The notes beneath the pieces were generated by a model that worked only from the letters and a program-made list of their open reading frames with translations, was not told the origin of the DNA and made no database searches. From Bradyrhizobium sp. AUGA SZCCT0283 (GTDB lineage: Bacteria > Pseudomonadota > Alphaproteobacteria > Rhizobiales > Xanthobacteraceae): DNA of 64,000 nt. The position numbers were made by a program, and so were the translations under genes. Positions 52,587 through 62,352 of the stretch are shown here, piece by piece (the stretch's first letter is position 1; each line of letters starts with the position of its first letter). The stretch spans positions 62,001 through 126,000 of the forward strand of contig NZ_JAFCLU010000012.1 of the NCBI RefSeq assembly GCF_018130385.1, given 5' to 3'.

Positions 52587-54650
52587 ATGCAATACGGCAT
52601 CGCGTTCACCCCCCTCGTTCCGACCATCGTGCTGTGGATCGCGCTGGCCGCGATCGTCGCGATCTCGGCGCTGCTGCTGCTCGGGCGGTCGCGCGGGGCT
52701 GCCGTGCGCGTCGCGGCGCTGGCGCTGATCCTGCTGGCGCTCGCCAACCCCTCCTTCACCCGCGAGGACCGCGAGCCTCTCTCCTCGGTCGCCGCCGTCG
52801 TGATCGACAAGAGCCCGAGCCAGAACTTCGGCACGCGCAACCAGGAGACGGCCAAGGCGCAGGAGGCCCTCGTTGACACGCTGAAGAAGATCAAGGGGCT
52901 GGAAGTCCGCGTCGTCGAGGCCGGACAGGCCGACGGCGAAACCGACGGCACCAAACTGTTCGGCGCGCTGTCCTCGGCGCTGTCGGACGTTCCCGTCGAC
53001 CGCGTCGCTGGCGCGTTCCTGATTACGGATGGCCGGGTGCACGACATTCCCGCCAACGCCGCCGCCCTCGGCTTCCAGGCGCCGGTGCACGCGCTCGTCA
53101 CCGGGGCTAAGGACGAACGCGACCGCCGTATCGCGATTTCCGCCGCGCCGCGGTTCGGCATCGTCGGACAGCCCCAGACCATCACCTACCGGCTCGATGA
53201 TCAGGGCGTTAGCGGCCAGCGCGCCAGGATCGTGGTGCGCCGCGACGGCGAGGTGATCAGCGAGCGCACGCTCGTGAGCGGCCAGACCTCCAATGTCGAG
53301 GTCGATATCAAGCATGCCGGGTCGAACATCGTCGAGATCGAGGCCTCGCCACTCGAGAATGAGCTGACGCTGGTGAATAACCGCGCCGTGGTCGCGATCG
53401 AGGGCGTGCGCGACAAGCTGCGCGTGCTGCTGGTATCCGGCGAGCCGCATTCCGGCGAGCGCACCTGGCGCAACCTGCTGAAATCCGACGCCAGCATCGA
53501 CCTCGTGCATTTCACGATTCTGCGCCCGCCGGAGAAACAGGACGGCACGCCGATCAACGAATTGTCACTGATCGCGTTTCCGACGCGCGAATTGTTCCAG
53601 CAGAAGATCAACGAATTCCAGTTGATCATCTTCGACCGCTACGCCCGCCAGGGCGTGCTGCCGATCGCCTATTTCGACAATATCGCGCGCTATGTCCGCG
53701 CCGGCGGCGCGGTGCTGGTGTCGGCCGGCCCCGACTACGCCTCCACCACCAGCATCTGGCGCACGCCGCTGGACACGGTGCTGCCGGCCGAGCCGGTCGG
53801 CGTCACTGAAAAACCGTTCTATGCGCACTTAAGCGACGCCGGCAAACGCCATCCGGTGACGCGCGGCCTCGAAGGCTCCGCCAGCGAGCCGCCGCGCTGG
53901 AGCCGCTTCTTCCGCACCGTGGATACGCGCAATGCGATCGGCGCGCCGGTGATGACCGGCGCCGACGGCAAGCCGTTGCTGTTGCTGTCGCGCTTCGGCG
54001 AAGGCCGGGTCGCGCTGCTGCTGTCGGACCACATTTGGCTATGGGCGCGCGGCTATGAGGGCGGTGGACCACATCTGGATCTGCTGCGGCGGACCTCGCA
54101 CTGGCTGATGAAGCAGCCCGAGCTCGATGAGGAAGCATTGCGCCTGCAGATCCAGGGCAAGGATCTCGTGGTGCTGCGCCAGACCATGGCCGACAACGTG
54201 CCGCCGGTAACAGTGACGTCACCGAGTGGCGCCACGAAAGAACTCACGCTGACCGCAAGCGAGCCCGGCACCTGGCGCTCCACCCTTCCCGCCAACGAAC
54301 TCGGGCTGTGGCAGGCAACCGACGGCGCGCTGAAAGCCCTGATCAATGTCGGGCCGACCAACCCGAAGGAATTTTCGGAAGTCACGTCCACTACCGAGAT
54401 GCTGAAGCCGCTGGCGCAGGCGACCGGTGGCGATGCACGCCGCGTGGCCGATGGCGGCAGCATCGATCTTCCGCGCGTGGTCCCGGTGCGTGCCTCCGGC
54501 ATCTTCCACGGCGACGGCTGGATGGGCGTGAAGATGCGCGACGCCAGCGTCGTCAAGGGCGTCGGCGTGCTGCCGATGTTCGCGGGGCTTGTCGGGCTCT
54601 TGCTGCTGCTCGGCGCGTTCGCGGCGACCTGGGTGCGCGAGGGGCGCTGA
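52587..54650 (+). CDS. large membrane protein with GATase1-like domain
   Basis: The 687-residue protein has N-terminal helices (FTPLVPTIVLWIALAAIVAISALLLLG, ALALILLALANP) and a C-terminal one. Between are VWA-like (VAAVVIDKSPSQNFGT) and class-I glutamine-amidotransferase-like folds (FDRYARQGVLPIAYFDNIARYVRAGGAVLVSAGPDY). No Cys nucleophile is visible, so a scaffold or binding role is likely. It ends the moxR operon, three bases after the DUF4159 gene. Confidence 0.85.
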   Translation: MQYGIAFTPLVPTIVLWIALAAIVAISALLLLGRSRGAAVRVAALALILLALANPSFTREDREPLSSVAAVVIDKSPSQNFGTRNQETAKAQEALVDTLKKIKGLEVRVVEAGQADGETDGTKLFGALSSALSDVPVDRVAGAFLITDGRVHDIPANAAALGFQAPVHALVTGAKDERDRRIAISAAPRFGIVGQPQTITYRLDDQGVSGQRARIVVRRDGEVISERTLVSGQTSNVEVDIKHAGSNIVEIEASPLENELTLVNNRAVVAIEGVRDKLRVLLVSGEPHSGERTWRNLLKSDASIDLVHFTILRPPEKQDGTPINELSLIAFPTRELFQQKINEFQLIIFDRYARQGVLPIAYFDNIARYVRAGGAVLVSAGPDYASTTSIWRTPLDTVLPAEPVGVTEKPFYAHLSDAGKRHPVTRGLEGSASEPPRWSRFFRTVDTRNAIGAPVMTGADGKPLLLLSRFGEGRVALLLSDHIWLWARGYEGGGPHLDLLRRTSHWLMKQPELDEEALRLQIQGKDLVVLRQTMADNVPPVTVTSPSGATKELTLTASEPGTWRSTLPANELGLWQATDGALKALINVGPTNPKEFSEVTSTTEMLKPLAQATGGDARRVADGGSIDLPRVVPVRASGIFHGDGWMGVKMRDASVVKGVGVLPMFAGLVGLLLLLGAFAATWVREGR

Positions 54651-54727
54651 GCGCTAGCCTCGCAAGCCCGATCGTTGCATCAATCACACAACGCTCGCCG
54701 TTTCAGTGATGCCCACCTGCACTGCGG

Positions 54728-54766
54728 TTGACTTCGCGCTTCCCTTCCGATGTTATAATATAACAT
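54728..54766 (+). promoter_or_regulatory. promoter with Zur-like box
   Basis: TTGACT (54728-54733) is followed after 17 bases by TGTTAT, and after 20 by TATAAT, within the 17-bp palindrome ATGTTATAATATAACAT (54750-54766). The palindrome matches the core of known proteobacterial Zur boxes (ATGTTATAnTATAACAT). Zur bound here would cover the -10 and block transcription of the DUF2946 and TonB-receptor genes. Confidence 0.75.
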
Positions 54767-54779
54767 TGGGACGACCCGG

Positions 54780-55181
54780 ATGAACTGGTTCCGAAAACAC
54801 GTGAAAACCGGCTCGCGGCTGGCGCTGTTTGCGCTCGCGATCCAGTTTGCGCTGTCGTTCGGGCACTTCCATGGGGCGGCAGCGCAGACGGTTCGGCTCG
54901 GCCTGACGGATGGCGATCTCGCCATTGCCGCCACGCTCGCCACGCCGGGGGCGCACTCCGAAGCCGCACAGCTGCCGTCCAACCACGATACCGATCAGCA
55001 AACCTCCGACTGCGCGATCTGCGCCGTCCTCTCGCTGGCGAACAATTTCCTGTTCGCCACGCCGCCGCTACTGGAGCTGCCGCAGGCGGTCGAGCTGCTG
55101 CACCTGACCGCCGGCGCCGAGTTCACGCATCTCGGCTCGCTGCATCCCGCGTTCCAGTCCCGCGCGCCTCCCGTCTCCTGA
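54780..55181 (+). CDS. DUF2946-like small protein
   Basis: The 133-residue protein has an N-terminal signal/anchor (SRLALFALAIQFALSFGHFHG) and a DUF2946 pattern with SDCAICAVLSLANNFL, a Cys-x-x-Cys with nearby His residues (FGHFHG, SNHDTD) that could bind metal. DUF2946 genes are often next to metal-uptake receptors. It is 13 bases after the Zur-like box and 104 bases before the TonB receptor. Confidence 0.82.
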   Translation: MNWFRKHVKTGSRLALFALAIQFALSFGHFHGAAAQTVRLGLTDGDLAIAATLATPGAHSEAAQLPSNHDTDQQTSDCAICAVLSLANNFLFATPPLLELPQAVELLHLTAGAEFTHLGSLHPAFQSRAPPVS

Positions 55182-55285
55182 CCTCGATTGATTGATGCAC
55201 TCCCGAGGGATTGCCGCCTAGCGCGGTTTCCCGAGGGAAAATCGGAATCGATCCGTCGCACATCGACGGAATCAGGATCGGGACA

Positions 55286-57676
55286 ATGACATCAAAGAAG
55301 AAACGAGCGTTCCATTTCGGTGGAGCAAGCTGGCTGTTGCTGTGCGCGATGGCGGACGGCGCGATGGCGCAGGATGCGGCAGCGCCATCCGCCTCGACAC
55401 AACTGCCTGAAATCACCGTGACGGCGCCGAGCCCGATCGTGCGGCGCAAACCCGCGCCGTCGCGAACGCCGGCGCGCGTCGCCCGCACCGCGCCCGGCCA
55501 AAACCGGCAACCGGCGGCAGAGCCGCAGGCCGCACCGGTCGCCGCCGCGCCCCAACAGGGCGTGCTGCCCGTCGTCACTGATCAGTTCGCGACCGTCACG
55601 GTCGTGCCGAACGAGGAAATCCGCCGTTCCGGCGGCGCGACGCTCGGCGATCTCCTGTTTTCAAAACCCGGCATCACCGGCTCCAGCTTCGCGCCGGGCG
55701 CCTCCAGCCGGCCGATCATCCGGGGACTCGATGTCAACAGGGTAGGCATCGTCGAGAACGGCACCGGCGGCGGCGGCGTATCCGATCTCGGTGAGGATCA
55801 TTTTGTGCCGATCGATCCGCTCGCCACCAACCAGGTCGAGGTCGTGCGCGGGCCCGCAGCCTTGCGCTACGGCTCGACCTCGATCGGCGGCGTCGTCAGC
55901 GCCACCAACAACCGCATTCCGGAGGCCTTGCCCTCCTGCCCGGCCGCGCCGTTCCAGAGCTACGGGCTGCCAGCGAAAGCGCCGCTGGCGGATGCGCAAT
56001 CCGCATCATGCGCGACCGTCGAGACGCGCACCGCCGTCAGCTCGGTCGATCGCGGCGTCGAAGGCGGTATCCTGCTCGATGCAGGCGGCGGCAATTTTGC
56101 CGTCCACGCCGACGCCTACGGCCGCAAGGCCGGCGACTACAGCATTCCAGGCTATCCCTATTTGTTCGACCAGACGCGGCCCGTGAACGGAAAGCAACCG
56201 AACTCGGCCGCGCAAGCCGATGGCGCTTCGGTCGGCGGCTCCTACATCTTCCATGGCGGCTTCATCGGCGCCGCGATCACGCAGAACGATTCGCTCTACC
56301 GCATCCCCGGCATCGACGGCGCCGATCACCAGACCCGTATCGACGCGCACCAGACCAAGTTTTCGGCCAAGGGCGAATACCGGCCGGACGCGGCGGCGAT
56401 CGATGCCGTCAGGTTCTGGGCCAGCGCGACCGACTACAAGCACAACGAAATCGGCCTCGCCGATCCCGCCGATCTCTCGTCAACAGGCGTGCGCCAGACC
56501 TTCACCAACAAGGAACAGGAAGGCCGCGTCGAGCTGCAGATGGCGCCGTTCAACGCACGCTTTGCCGCCGTCACGACCGCGTTCGGCCTGCAGGCAAGCC
56601 ACCAGCAACTGACGGCGCCAAGTCCGGACGATCCCGGCAGTCCGCTCAACGGATTGTGGGATCCGAACAAAAACACCAAGGTCGCGGGCTATGCCTTCAA
56701 CGAACTCAAGTTCAGCGAGACCACCAAGGCGCAGATCGCCGGCCGCATCGAGCATGTCAGCCTCAGCGGGACGACGCCGTCGTTCATTCCTGATCTGTTC
56801 GACCTCAACGCCAATCCCGGCGATATCGGTCCGCCGATCGCACGCAGCCTGAACTTCACGCCGAAGAGCGCGAGCATCGGCCTGATCCAGAATTTGCCGG
56901 GCCAGCTGGTTGCCAGCATCACCGCTCAATATGTCGAGCGCGCGCCGAAGCCTGCGGAATTGTTCTCGCGCGGCGCGCACGACGCCACCGGCACGTTCGA
57001 TATCGGCAATCCCAACCTGGGTCTCGAAACCGCCAAGACAATCGAGATCGGCTTGCGACGGGCGACCGGGCCTTTCAGGTTCGAAGCGACGGCCTACTAC
57101 ACCAAGTTCAACGGCTTCATTTACCGTCGCCTCACCGGCAACACCTGCGAGGATGTCGCCTGTGTCGGGCCCGCCGATCCGGCTGCTCCGCTCGAGTTGA
57201 ATCAGGCGATCTATTCGCAGCGTGACGCCACCTTCCGCGGCGGCGAGTTCCAGAGCCAGTTGGACATCGGCCCGCTCAACGGCGGCATCTGGGGCATCGA
57301 GAACCAGTTCGACGTGGTGCGCGCGACCTTCAGCGACGGCACCAATGTCCCGCGTATCCCGCCGGTGCGCGTGGGTGGCGGCCTGTTCTGGCGCGATGCC
57401 AACTGGCTGACGCGGATCAACCTGCTGCATGCCTTCGCGCAGAACGACATCGCCCCGATCGGCGAGACACAGACCGCGGGCTATAATCTGTTGAAGGCGG
57501 AGGTCAGCTACAGGACGAAGCTCGATCCATCCTGGTTCGGCGCGCGGGAAATGACGGTCGGTCTCGTCGGCAACAACCTGCTGAACGAGAACATCCGCAA
57601 TTCGGTGTCCTACACCAAGGACCAGGTTCTCATGCCGGGCATCGGCGTGCGCGCGTTTGCCAATCTGAAGTTCTAG
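55286..57676 (+). CDS. TonB-dependent receptor, ZnuD-like (zinc)
   Basis: The 796-residue outer-membrane receptor has a signal (WLLLCAMADGAMAQ), a TonB box-like LPEITVTAP, a plug domain (SGGATLGDLLFSKPGITGSSFAPGASSRPIIRGLDVNRVGIVENG and VEVVRGPAALRYGS) and a beta-barrel ending in Phe. The ERAPKPAELFSRGAHDATGTFDIGNPNLGLETAKTIEIGLR segment matches ZnuD-type receptors. With the Zur-like box upstream, zinc uptake is likely. The ATG at 55286 gives the signal. Confidence 0.9.
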   Translation: MTSKKKRAFHFGGASWLLLCAMADGAMAQDAAAPSASTQLPEITVTAPSPIVRRKPAPSRTPARVARTAPGQNRQPAAEPQAAPVAAAPQQGVLPVVTDQFATVTVVPNEEIRRSGGATLGDLLFSKPGITGSSFAPGASSRPIIRGLDVNRVGIVENGTGGGGVSDLGEDHFVPIDPLATNQVEVVRGPAALRYGSTSIGGVVSATNNRIPEALPSCPAAPFQSYGLPAKAPLADAQSASCATVETRTAVSSVDRGVEGGILLDAGGGNFAVHADAYGRKAGDYSIPGYPYLFDQTRPVNGKQPNSAAQADGASVGGSYIFHGGFIGAAITQNDSLYRIPGIDGADHQTRIDAHQTKFSAKGEYRPDAAAIDAVRFWASATDYKHNEIGLADPADLSSTGVRQTFTNKEQEGRVELQMAPFNARFAAVTTAFGLQASHQQLTAPSPDDPGSPLNGLWDPNKNTKVAGYAFNELKFSETTKAQIAGRIEHVSLSGTTPSFIPDLFDLNANPGDIGPPIARSLNFTPKSASIGLIQNLPGQLVASITAQYVERAPKPAELFSRGAHDATGTFDIGNPNLGLETAKTIEIGLRRATGPFRFEATAYYTKFNGFIYRRLTGNTCEDVACVGPADPAAPLELNQAIYSQRDATFRGGEFQSQLDIGPLNGGIWGIENQFDVVRATFSDGTNVPRIPPVRVGGGLFWRDANWLTRINLLHAFAQNDIAPIGETQTAGYNLLKAEVSYRTKLDPSWFGAREMTVGLVGNNLLNENIRNSVSYTKDQVLMPGIGVRAFANLKF

Positions 57677-57695
57677 AGCAGGTGCTGACGGGTGG

Positions 57696-57720
57696 CGTTA
57701 GCTGGTGGTACCAGCTAACG
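57696..57720 (+). terminator. hairpin after the TonB-receptor gene
   Basis: CGTTAGCTGG / CCAGCTAACG (10 bp) with a TGGTA loop lies 19 bases after the stop. A T-run is missing, so termination may be Rho-aided. Confidence 0.55.
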
Positions 57721-57801
57721 TCGGCATGGATGATGTTGGATACCCGATATCGCACCGTTCAGGATATGCCTTGCCCGACGCGAGCTGACGAACACGGATA
57801 G

Positions 57802-59589
57802 ATGGCCTCGCCGATCAACATTCCCGTCTACAGCGATGCCCTCGTCCTGCTCGGCACCGCGGGCATCGTCATTCCGTTGGTGCGCCGGTTCGGCTTCAAT
57901 CCCGTCCTCGGCTATCTCGTAGCGGGCGCGATCCTCGGTCCCCTGGGACTCGGCTCGTTTATCGGCCAATTCCCGTTCCTGTACTGGTTCATCGTGGTTG
58001 ACGCCAAGAACGTCGCCGGTATCGCAGAACTCGGCATCGTGTTCCTGCTGTTCCTGATCGGCTTGGAACTGTCCTATGAGCGGTTGAAGACGATGCGCCG
58101 CCTGGTTTTCGGACTGGGCAGCCTGCAGATCGTGTTCTCCACAGCCGCAATCGGCGCCGCCGTGATCCTTGCGGGCGGCAAGCCGCCGGTGCCGCTCATC
58201 GTCGGTGCCTGCCTGGCGCTGTCGTCGACCGCCATCGTCGTCGAAGTGCTTTCCAGGCAGGGACGGCTGAACACGACCGCTGGCCGCGCCAGTTTCGCGA
58301 TCCTGCTGGCGCAGGACCTGGCGGTGGTGCCGCTCCTGCTGTTCATCTCGATTTTCGGCACCGGCGAATCCGGTTCGGTTGTTGGCACACTCCTGCTGGC
58401 GCTCGCTAACGCCGCTATCGCGCTCGGCGTGATCGTCGTCGTCGGCCGCGTGGTGATGCGGCCGCTGTTCCGTCTGGTCGCATCCGTGGGCATGAGCGAC
58501 CTGTTCGTGGCCACCACGCTGTTCGTGATCGTCGCAGCCGGGGTGGCCGCCGCCGCGGCCGGCTTCTCGATGGCGCTTGGCGCCTTCATAGCCGGCCTGC
58601 TGCTCGCCGAGACCGAATTCCGCAAGGCGATCGAGACCGCCATCGATCCTTTCAAGGGACTCCTGCTGGGCCTGTTCTTTTTTACGGTCGGCATGAACAT
58701 CGACTTCCGCGAGCTTGCCCGCGATCCCGTTTGGCTGCTTGGAAGCGCCGTCGGACTCGTTGCCGTAAAATCCATCATCCTCATCGCCCTCACCCGGCTG
58801 TTTCGCCTTTCCTGGCGAGCGTCCATCGAAACGGGCCTCCTGCTCGGCCCGGGCGGCGAGTTCGCCTTCGTCGGCATCGGCATGGCGACAACGCTCGGTC
58901 TGATCGATGCCAAGGTGTCGAGCTTCACGGTCGCGCTGACGTCGCTGACCATGCTGCTCATTCCTGCGCTTTCCCATGTGGCGCGGCGGCTCGCGCCAAT
59001 GATGCACGAAGACAGGCAACTCGACCCCGAGCTGACCGTTGCACCGAGCGGAGGCACCAACCATGCCATTGTCATCGGACATGGCCGGGTGGGACAGGTC
59101 GTCTGCTCTATGCTCGATCGGCACAAATTCCAGTACATTGCCGTCGATAATGACGCTGCGGCCGTTCCGGAGCAGCGAAGGCAGGGCCGCACCGTTTATT
59201 ATGGTGATGCGACAAATCCGGAGTTTTTGAAGAGCTGCGGCCTCATGGACGCGGCGGCGGTCATCGTCACCATCAGCGAAGCCAAGGGCATCGACGAAAT
59301 TGTCGCGCAGGTCCGCGCGCTCAGGCAAGACATGCTGATAGTGTCGCGCGCCCGCGACGCGGAGCATGCGCGGCATCTTTATCAGATCGGCGTTACCGAC
59401 GCGGTGCCCGAGACCATCGAAGCAAGCCTGTTGTTGTCCGAAGCGGCCCTGATCGGCCTCGGCGTGGCAATGGGACTGGTCGTCGCGTCCATCCACGAAA
59501 AGCGCGAGGAATTCCGGCACGAGTTGCAGCAGGCCGCGGGAGGTACCCGGCCTGTGGGAGAGACGACTGGCGTCAAAAGGAAACGCTGA
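57802..59589 (+). CDS. KefB-type monovalent cation:proton antiporter
   Basis: The 595-residue protein has about 12 membrane helices with the CPA2 pattern (GIAELGIVFLLFLIGLELSYERL, ALSSTAIVVEVLSRQGRLNTTAGRASFAILLAQDLAVVPLLL). A cytoplasmic TrkA-N domain follows (HAIVIGHGRVGQVVCSMLDRHKFQYIAVDND, with GxGxxG). Such proteins exchange K+ or Na+ for H+. Ligand not known. Confidence 0.93.
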   Translation: MASPINIPVYSDALVLLGTAGIVIPLVRRFGFNPVLGYLVAGAILGPLGLGSFIGQFPFLYWFIVVDAKNVAGIAELGIVFLLFLIGLELSYERLKTMRRLVFGLGSLQIVFSTAAIGAAVILAGGKPPVPLIVGACLALSSTAIVVEVLSRQGRLNTTAGRASFAILLAQDLAVVPLLLFISIFGTGESGSVVGTLLLALANAAIALGVIVVVGRVVMRPLFRLVASVGMSDLFVATTLFVIVAAGVAAAAAGFSMALGAFIAGLLLAETEFRKAIETAIDPFKGLLLGLFFFTVGMNIDFRELARDPVWLLGSAVGLVAVKSIILIALTRLFRLSWRASIETGLLLGPGGEFAFVGIGMATTLGLIDAKVSSFTVALTSLTMLLIPALSHVARRLAPMMHEDRQLDPELTVAPSGGTNHAIVIGHGRVGQVVCSMLDRHKFQYIAVDNDAAAVPEQRRQGRTVYYGDATNPEFLKSCGLMDAAAVIVTISEAKGIDEIVAQVRALRQDMLIVSRARDAEHARHLYQIGVTDAVPETIEASLLLSEAALIGLGVAMGLVVASIHEKREEFRHELQQAAGGTRPVGETTGVKRKR

Positions 59590-61200: not shown

Positions 61201-62352
61201 TCAGGCGTTGGCCGGTTGAGGGAAGGCCGCACGGTCCGCGGCCCATTCGCCGCGCAGATCGAGCGTTGCGAACAGCAAAGTCCAGAGCGAGAGCATGTCG
61301 ATCGGAATGATATAATATGGCGTAAATATCGGATGGGTCATGAAGAAAATCAGGTTTACCGCGAGGTTCACGGCGACCAGAAGGGCGACCTGCCGCGCGC
61401 GGCCCCGATCGAAGCGCCAGAGCCAGGCGGTCCAGGCGACCGATATCGCCAGCAAGGTGAATTGAACGTCAACGAGATAGCTCCAGAGTACGGCCGGATT
61501 CAGCTCGGGCGGTGTGACGTCGACGCTGCCATAGGTGGTCGAGAACGGACCACCCGCATTGATCGCATTCGCGATCAATGTCGGCGCGATCCCGATAAGG
61601 AAGGCGATAGCGAATGACGCCCCCTGCAGGAAAGTCTCCTTGCTGCGCGCCAGCAGGAACGCGCCGGCAAGATACAGGCAATAGCCCGCGGCCAGAAACA
61701 GGTTCGGCAGACGGAAATTGACGGATAGGCCGATCAGCAAACCCATCAGCGCGATAACCAGCAGCCGTTGCCGCGGATGTCCTGCGAAGGACTTCACGGT
61801 GAGAAAGCCTGCGGCCGCGCAGACCATCATGGTCGGCGGCACCGAATAGCTCGCCTTGCTCGGGTTGATCATCAAGTAAAGCGCAGCAAGCCCGAATACC
61901 GCAGCCAGCGCGAGCGAAGCCGGGTCGCGTGCGCGGAACAAGGCAAGCAGCGCGAAGGCGAGGATCGTCAGGTTAGCCAGCACATAGAGCGGGATCACCT
62001 GAAACCCCTCGCGAAACAGCGCCAGCGCAAATCCGGTGCCCGGCGGGTATTGCATGACATATTTGTCGGCCGCCGGAATCAATGTGTGGCAGGGGATGCG
62101 CTTCACATTGTTCCATTCCGCATAGCCGATCGCCTTCAGCTTGTTCTTGAGATAGTCGTCGTCGTCGAAAACGATGTTGGTATCGATGCCGCCAAGGCCA
62201 TATTTCTGGAACAGATGCGCCTGCCGCAGATAGCAGACGTCGTCATAGACGCCGCGGCTTTCGCTCCAGCGCGACATCGTCCAGACATTGCTCGCCAGCA
62301 CCGCGAGCAGGCCGAAGCCGCAGAGGAGCCTGAAAATTTTTATCCTGCCCAT
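61201..62352 (-). CDS. polytopic membrane protein (GT-C-like)
   Basis: The 383-residue protein has about ten membrane helices. A large loop after the first helix has SRGVYDDVCYLRQAHLFQKYGLGGIDTN, an Asp/His-containing stretch like the first loop of GT-C (PMT/ArnT-like) transferases. No sure family match. Next to the GT2 gene, so a lipid-linked sugar path is possible. The start at 62352 (MGRIKIFRLL) is preferred to a longer one. Confidence 0.75.
   Translation of the reverse strand: MGRIKIFRLLCGFGLLAVLASNVWTMSRWSESRGVYDDVCYLRQAHLFQKYGLGGIDTNIVFDDDDYLKNKLKAIGYAEWNNVKRIPCHTLIPAADKYVMQYPPGTGFALALFREGFQVIPLYVLANLTILAFALLALFRARDPASLALAAVFGLAALYLMINPSKASYSVPPTMMVCAAAGFLTVKSFAGHPRQRLLVIALMGLLIGLSVNFRLPNLFLAAGYCLYLAGAFLLARSKETFLQGASFAIAFLIGIAPTLIANAINAGGPFSTTYGSVDVTPPELNPAVLWSYLVDVQFTLLAISVAWTAWLWRFDRGRARQVALLVAVNLAVNLIFFMTHPIFTPYYIIPIDMLSLWTLLFATLDLRGEWAADRAAFPQPANA

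Follow-up and report, generated by a model that had tools for sequence, protein, structure and literature searches.

Between a Zur-like palindrome and a gene for a TonB-dependent receptor resembling the zinc receptor ZnuD, the unit at 54728–57676 carries an open reading frame (ORF) of the DUF2946 family, and the question raised by this locus is what that ORF does there. Coordinates refer to the window, the whole stretch of 64,000 nucleotides (nt) analyzed from Bradyrhizobium sp. AUGA SZCCT0283 (NZ_JAFCLU010000012.1, positions 62,001 to 126,000). The original prediction read the unit as a Zur-controlled response to zinc limitation and the DUF2946 protein as a possible periplasmic zinc handler. 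We propose that the two genes form a zinc-uptake unit controlled at two levels, with Zur acting on transcription and a stalling leader acting in cis on translation, and assign this reading as a whole a probability of about 0.7. The zinc and Zur part of the prediction stands, while its view of the DUF2946 protein is replaced by that of an arrest leader of the type of CruR, a leader ORF of Bordetella pertussis, within a Zur-linked branch of the family.

The putative operator is the palindrome ATGTTATAATATAACAT at 54750–54766 (no strand assigned), which on inspection comprises 17 bp, two 8-bp arms and one central base, and overlaps TATAAT at 54754–54759, as predicted for a Zur-type palindrome over the −10 element. 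A possible −35 element, TTGACT (54728–54733, + strand), is separated from TATAAT by 20 nt, longer than usual, and a scan for consensus promoters with spacers of 16–18 nt found none. GTTGAC was unchanged in 12 of 12 aligned upstream regions; since these were chosen by hand and mostly had perfect boxes, conservation of the box among them carries little weight. When the 8.07 Mb genome was searched with ATGTTATANTATAACAT, allowing ≤3 mismatches, exactly two sites were returned, 54750–54766 and C35:221359–221375, and the reversed control pattern gave 0 matches at the same threshold. The second site lies ~180 bp 5′ of the first ORF of a zinc ATP-binding cassette (ABC) transporter operon, whose products scored best against the AztA, AztB and AztC models (216.0, 256.9 and 305.7 bits, each slightly under its own cut-off of 220, 280 and 350). 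Next in that operon is a GTPase, which we take to be of the COG0523 group, which scored against CobW-related models, ZigA among them (200.9 bits; cut-off 600). Four FUR-family genes were found in the genome, and the product of the candidate Zur gene at C1:171864 (locus L245) matched two Protein Data Bank (PDB) entries, the Fur-family regulator 7dh7 at 117 bits and the zinc uptake regulation protein 4mtd at 104.3 bits; against the NCBIfam Zur model it scored 122 bits, under the cut-off of 167. Among the named-record loci, the best 80 of 206, a box was present within 150 bp in 77 of 80, compared to 0 of 354 control segments. With its rarity in the genome, its second copy at the zinc ABC operon and its retention in relatives, the site has the features of a Zur operator, and sequence comparison leaves little doubt that Zur would control the receptor unit.

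The receptor (796 amino acids, 55286–57676, + strand, from the ATG at 55286 to the last base of the stop) contains Plug and barrel domains by Pfam. Its top NCBIfam match was ZnuD (NF038289, 214.6 bits); the cut-off of 950 was missed by far, and the protein is therefore named ZnuD-like and not filed as ZnuD. The top PDB match was also ZnuD (4rdr, 134.2 bits). In ZnuD of Neisseria meningitidis, the high-affinity zinc ligands are described as Asp99, His100, Glu340 and His499 (PMC4557270). All four are matched in the alignment to 4rdr by D171 and H172 (55796–55801), E388 (56447–56449) and H565 (56978–56980), all on the + strand, which are candidate zinc ligands; positions were counted by hand along the alignment, with the chain number equal to the number in the paper plus 14. 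In an alignment of downstream proteins longer than 650 amino acids from second-copy and family loci, all of D-H-E-H were kept in 36 of 42 rows with a Zur-like box upstream of the leader (boxed rows) and in 3 of 9 unboxed rows, and the receptor of the genome's own copper operon did not keep the set. The best NCBIfam and PDB matches and the four ligands agree with the ZnuD-type motifs first noticed in the receptor, and together with the second box, the Zur gene and the counts in named-record loci they support the pairing of a Zur box with a zinc receptor. An AlphaFold model of the receptor built from 28 rows (mean pLDDT, the predicted local distance difference test score, 41.8) was not used. A search for intrinsic terminators at 57600–57850 found none.

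The DUF2946 ORF (133 amino acids, 54780–55181, + strand) is the first gene ahead of the receptor, its stop ending at 55181. It scored 24.1 bits against PF11162, narrowly past the cut-off of 23.7, and in the genome-wide scan the same frame scored 23.6 bits, or 23.8 with in-frame neighbors. The N-terminus is signal-like and ends with GHFH (residues 28–31, codons 54861–54872, + strand). This is followed by CAIC, the proposed metal site (residues 78–81, codons 55011–55022, + strand), and by RAPP, the proposed ribosome arrest motif (residues 128–131, codons 55161–55172, + strand). In 29 aligned leader rows, G28, H29, H31, C78, C81, R128, P130 and P131 were unchanged and A129 was nearly so. CAIC and RAPP are separated by 46 residues, and RAPP is followed by two residues and the stop. 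The gap of 46 was found in 30 of 30 genus loci, with a two-residue tail in all except one locus with five, and among 87 further genus and family profile rows the gap was 44–47 in all 87 and the tail two residues in 83, making 112 of 117 overall. In other peptides, arrest at RAPP is established, the third residue then occupying the P-site (PMC10987492, PMC12992588, PMC10951233), and CruR is described as arresting at this motif in vitro (PMC12992588). In relatives L125 and L130, leader and receptor occur as tandem units in which each receptor has its own leader (the second leader of L125 is unboxed); such repetition argues for a leader acting in cis, since a soluble handler would not need it. 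From these sequence features, the ORF very probably encodes a cis-acting arrest leader of the CruR type, with stalling at its own locus as a prediction.

The end of the leader also suggests how a stall could reach the receptor. The last Ser codon and stop read UCCUGA (55176–55181, + strand), the exact reverse complement of UCAGGA (55272–55277, + strand), the Shine-Dalgarno (SD)-like site of the receptor, across a 104-nt spacer (55182–55285, + strand) that RNAfold predicted to be structured. For 55140–55330, the folding energy was −69.2 kcal/mol (z −1.79), and the minimum-energy fold paired the UCCUGA and UCAGGA regions; a search of 54650–57800 against Rfam gave no match. The fixed two-residue tail fits a cis-acting leader because UCCUGA then sits under a ribosome stalled at RAPP. 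Stalling was modeled as a ribosome footprint of 27 nt placed at the stall position given in the literature, with masks placed upstream in the leader and in the spacer as controls. At the locus itself (row L012), the probability that the SD hexamer is unpaired was 0.03 in free RNA, 0.24 with the RAPP footprint and 0.03 with the control masks. The calculation covered the 116 loci with an assignable start (29 genus, 56 family, 12 second copies and 19 class); 31 of 147 rows were dropped, most of them for want of a start, and some retained starts are wrong. Between the free and stalled states, the unpaired probability changed from 0.15 to 0.32 for the genus, 0.18 to 0.40 for the family, 0.30 to 0.43 for second copies and 0.21 to 0.38 for the class, compared to 0.14, 0.17, 0.29 and 0.22 with upstream masks and 0.19, 0.23, 0.38 and 0.25 with spacer masks. 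Gains above 0.2 were seen at 54 loci with the stall mask, 1 with upstream masks and 7 with spacer masks.

Because complementarity was weak locus by locus, leader ends and SD sites were compared by permutation over 53 non-redundant loci, obtained by thinning 97 of the 116. Leader ends scored 14.48 against their own SD sites and 12.52 (standard deviation 0.30) against permuted ones, with 0 of 5000 permutations as high. By subset, p was 0.0002 for genus and family (38 loci), and none of 5000 permutations was as high for the class (15 loci); a control window gave p = 0.16 over the same 53 loci. Evolution that keeps base pairing predicts such a pair-specific fit. Among the 53 loci, 27 gained more than 0.2 under the stall mask compared to 1 and 3 under the control masks. 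In the named-record loci, 77 of 80 leaders ended in CCTGA, and 50 of these had TCAGG shortly before an ATG within the next 190 nt, compared to 57 of 1600 random segments. In the folding predictions, the SD site is sequestered and a stall would free it, although single loci were often non-significant; SD release by a stalled ribosome is, on this modeling, probable. The pair-specific fit was also found in the class-wide set (13 of its 15 loci were not matches of the zinc-branch profile), which suggests that SD release operates more widely in the DUF2946 family, alongside Rho. In class leaders L113, L120 and L065, the ends were complementary to the next SD site in letters other than TCCTGA and TCAGGA, L113 having CTTATCTAA with TTAGATAAG.

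How far the box accompanies such leaders was surveyed by scoring sites with ≤3 mismatches within 200 bp upstream. Boxes were found in 30 of 30 genus rows, 14 of 18 low-identity genus copies and 61 of 69 family rows but in 1 of 30 class-wide rows, and this lone class row (L062) matched the zinc-branch profile. The class set consisted of the better-scoring PF11162 matches plus four zinc-branch profile matches and is not a random sample; 26 of its 30 rows end in R[AG]PP, and it includes one gene twice (L065/L098), second frames (L101 and L114) and wrong frames (L099 and L109). At least seven rows of the family set are from the same genus, and L071 duplicates L022. Motifs were compared between 85 boxed tree rows and 24 class or own-copper rows, excluding unboxed family and genus rows, with all rows pre-filtered on R[AG]PP. 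GHxH was present in 79 of 85 boxed rows compared to 1 of 24, and the mean number of Cys residues before CXXC was 0.09 compared to 1.50, so that the boxed branch is without the third Cys. The presence of GHxH in 80 of 80 named-record loci carries no weight because the search pattern required it.

Downstream of 105 boxed genus and family rows were 98 TonB receptors, 2 ExbB, 1 DUF1007 and 1 HlyD protein. TonB receptors were called by similarity to reference receptors with Pfam checks on examples; the other three rows (L052, L060 and L147), where wrong frames were taken, gave no assignment, nor did the one boxed class row, and two references were not confirmed by Pfam above cut-off (L053, unscanned; L069, Plug 20.6 bits compared to 23.9). 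By comparison, 20 proteins downstream of class loci contained 6 PCuAC, 2 DUF1775, 1 SCO1 and 4 TonB plug matches by Pfam and 7 with other or no matches; we take DUF1775 to be the YcnI domain. The genome also contains a copper-type leader of its own (C79, near 119260–119589; L042 4749–5117, − strand), which precedes genes for a TonB receptor, PCuAC and DUF1775 and has no Zur box within 500 bp. In a midpoint-rooted tree of 122 rows, 27 rows (26 unboxed) split from 95 (84 boxed), and the box label changed 10 times compared to a mean of 32 in shuffles; about two thirds of the genus rows had been omitted at random, and the tree has few columns and long branches. The branch was found in 143 of 146 genus genomes (by a search with a single protein), 73 of 149 family genomes, 5 of 289 class genomes and 11 of 299 genomes phylum-wide, 9 of these from the organism's own family; the counts outside the family may be too low because ≤14 candidates per genome were scored in the class and phylum searches. 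These comparisons indicate a Zur-linked branch of the DUF2946 family whose boxed leaders share GHxH and CXXC and mostly precede TonB receptors. Class-wide DUF2946 leaders generally do not show this set and are frequently found ahead of copper genes.

Some boxed loci of the branch are arranged differently. Zinc-branch leaders also head ExbB genes (L045 and L046 by Pfam; L052 and L060 similar by eye), with a TonB-like frame further down, and at such loci the same control may extend to the supply of energy for TonB receptors. In L145 (1473–2150, + strand), a zinc-branch leader with a one-mismatch box is followed by a DUF1007 gene, and in L062 (1903–3327, + strand), from another family, a GHxH leader with a two-mismatch box is followed by a protein without a Pfam match. 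L138, L140 and L142 are profile matches before CusB/HlyD-type efflux genes and fall with the unboxed group in the tree. In many genus relatives (L013, L016, L036, L039), a GTPase gene runs divergently to the leader, with an overlapping pair of boxes of its own ~220–260 bp upstream of the leader.

In the proposed mechanism, zinc-loaded Zur would bind the box over the promoter and block transcription, and zinc shortage would lift the block. A ribosome translating the leader would then stall once RAPP enters the peptidyl-transferase center and cover UCCUGA, so that UCAGGA stays free and the receptor is translated. Metal bound to the nascent chain at CXXC, perhaps with His29 and His31, would relieve the stall; the leader would be completed, UCAGGA sequestered and the receptor shut off, and Rho might also end the transcript. 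The opening of the SD site is a folding prediction, and RAPP arrest with metal control through CXXC is carried over from relatives, having been shown by others for CruR. We infer Zur binding, the direction of the switch and zinc over copper as ligand of the leader. Metal is assigned the off direction because the receptor is an uptake gene, as in CruR. For the leader's own ligand, zinc has about an even chance, an estimate based on Zur, the ligands of the receptor, the leader's His and Cys residues and the presence of a distinct leader of copper type. Slightly less than even odds are given to the broader proposal that the leaders of this branch, found in Bradyrhizobium and the family around it, are arrest peptides that sense zinc through HxH plus CXXC and, with transcription under Zur, set translation of zinc receptors, and in some relatives of ExbB, by stall-dependent SD release.

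Several observations weigh against this two-layer scheme. The stall mask raised SD accessibility by more than 0.2 in just 54 of 116 loci, and complementarity at single loci reached p ≤ 0.05 in 24 of 116 and in 0 of 29 from the genus. The difference in His residues among the 20 before CXXC was slight (1.98 boxed compared to 1.54 class or own-copper, p = 0.032), and acidic residues before CXXC did not differ between these rows (p = 0.2). Leader and box can part, as in seven of 11 unboxed low-identity or family cases with TonB receptors; six family and three second-copy unboxed rows precede such receptors. Support for the split of boxed from unboxed rows was modest (83/91), with a bootstrap that had yet to converge. 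Zinc ligands were incomplete in 6 of 42 boxed downstream proteins; of these six, Pfam identifies L129 and L134 as TonB receptors, and the frame of L147 was misread. Finally, for CutF, a DUF2946-like leader of Rhodobacter capsulatus, metal was reported to increase stalling and not to reduce it (PMC9973294).

The closest competitor is a leader that senses copper as CruR does, with Zur reading zinc at the promoter and the receptor integrating two metals. The experimentally studied DUF2946 leaders that we found are all described as sensing copper (PMC9426467, PMC9973294), CXXC is a recognized copper motif, and RAPP and its spacing from CXXC are alike in both leader types. We nonetheless consider copper sensing rather unlikely, given that the boxed branch carries GHxH without the extra Cys, that a separate, unboxed copper-type leader stands before TonB receptor, PCuAC and DUF1775 genes in the same genome and that the genes behind boxed leaders encode receptors with ZnuD ligands. 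Equally doubtful is that Rho-dependent termination between leader and receptor is the main control and SD pairing secondary, a view that can coexist with SD release. The region 54880–55237 has more C than G, as in cruR, and over 117 loci the mean skew of the second half of the leader plus 60 nt was 0.157 compared to 0.080 in receptor windows; it is only suggestive of Rho because 133 of 351 receptor windows also exceeded 0.1, and Rho alone does not predict the pair-specific complementarity.

Two further explanations concern what the leader protein itself might do. It could monitor protein export rather than metal, as SecM and ApdP do, so that slow export would turn on the receptor; RAPP-type leaders of secA and secDF are described as acting in this way (PMC10987492), and the N-terminus here is signal-like. 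Export sensing would have no need of the invariant H29, H31, C78 and C81, and boxed leaders stand ahead of metal-uptake genes, not sec genes, making this explanation improbable. Least probable is the periplasmic zinc handler acting in trans. The signal-like N-terminus, HxH, CXXC and Zur box had made it attractive, but it was set aside because the invariant C-terminal RAPP with its fixed short tail, the pairing of the leader end with the receptor SD site and the tandem units point, with CXXC, to a leader acting in cis; in addition, the CruR protein was reported as undetected and seemingly short-lived (PMC9426467).

If the Zur-linked branch reads zinc, then zinc has the same kind of peptide-leader sensor as copper, in a layer beneath Zur, and the label of copper sensor should not be given to every DUF2946 leader that precedes a TonB receptor. 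With both leader types in one genome, the choice of metal by an arrest peptide is open to comparison within one host.

Parts of the arrangement have counterparts in known systems. The receptor resembles ZnuD of N. meningitidis in its TonB receptor fold family and in all four high-affinity ligands described for that protein, and differs in falling far under the NCBIfam cut-off. In the Zur regulon of Caulobacter as described in PMC4176598, TonB receptors are likewise under Zur control and the DUF2946 genes CC1775 and CC2720 are Zur-affected; in contrast to the locus here, both are decreased in the zur mutant, CC2720 stands at the head of an efflux operon and no leader role is stated. The literature search, by title and with most subscription papers and all supplements outside its scope, returned no DUF2946 leader under Zur control ahead of a zinc receptor. 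SecM, ApdA, ApdP and the RQH family likewise carry RAPP/RAGP or RGPP at the C-terminus of a small leader ORF whose product is exported (PMC10987492, PMC10951233, PMC12992588); their stalls leave the third residue of the motif in the P-site, and TonB receptors are listed among the genes behind such arrest ORFs (PMC12992588). The sec-linked RAPP peptides differ in watching protein export. Zinc has 0 mentions in the main text of the EMBO J 2025 survey of arrest peptides (PMC12992588) and appears once, in a reference title, in a 2026 paper on copper TonB receptors.

The nearest relatives are CutF and CruR, and the main texts of both papers contain 0 mentions of zinc or Zur (PMC9973294, PMC9426467). 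CutF heads the cutFOG operon and was reported to raise copper oxidase production with copper (PMC9973294). It has in common with the present ORF a DUF2946-like leader, a metal motif, a proline-rich end and a stem-loop shielding the SD site of the next gene; it differs in its copper oxidase target and CXXXC, the gene here being an uptake gene. For two clusters with His only, that paper proposes nickel or cobalt, not zinc. CruR (bp2923) of B. pertussis, in the operon cruR-bfrG-bp2921, is described as regulating a TonB receptor according to copper, which was explained by Rho-dependent termination; the same paper notes that riboswitches are not known for either copper or zinc, a peptide leader taking that role for copper (PMC9426467). 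The two leaders are alike in being DUF2946 ORFs at the head of a TonB receptor operon, with CXXC, C-terminal RAPP, a C-over-G region and nearly the same distance between the motifs (45 residues in CruR, 46 here). They are unlike in that CruR answers copper and was explained by Rho termination, whereas the leader described here has a Zur box, a ZnuD-like receptor, GHxH, no third Cys and a leader end that pairs with the receptor SD site.

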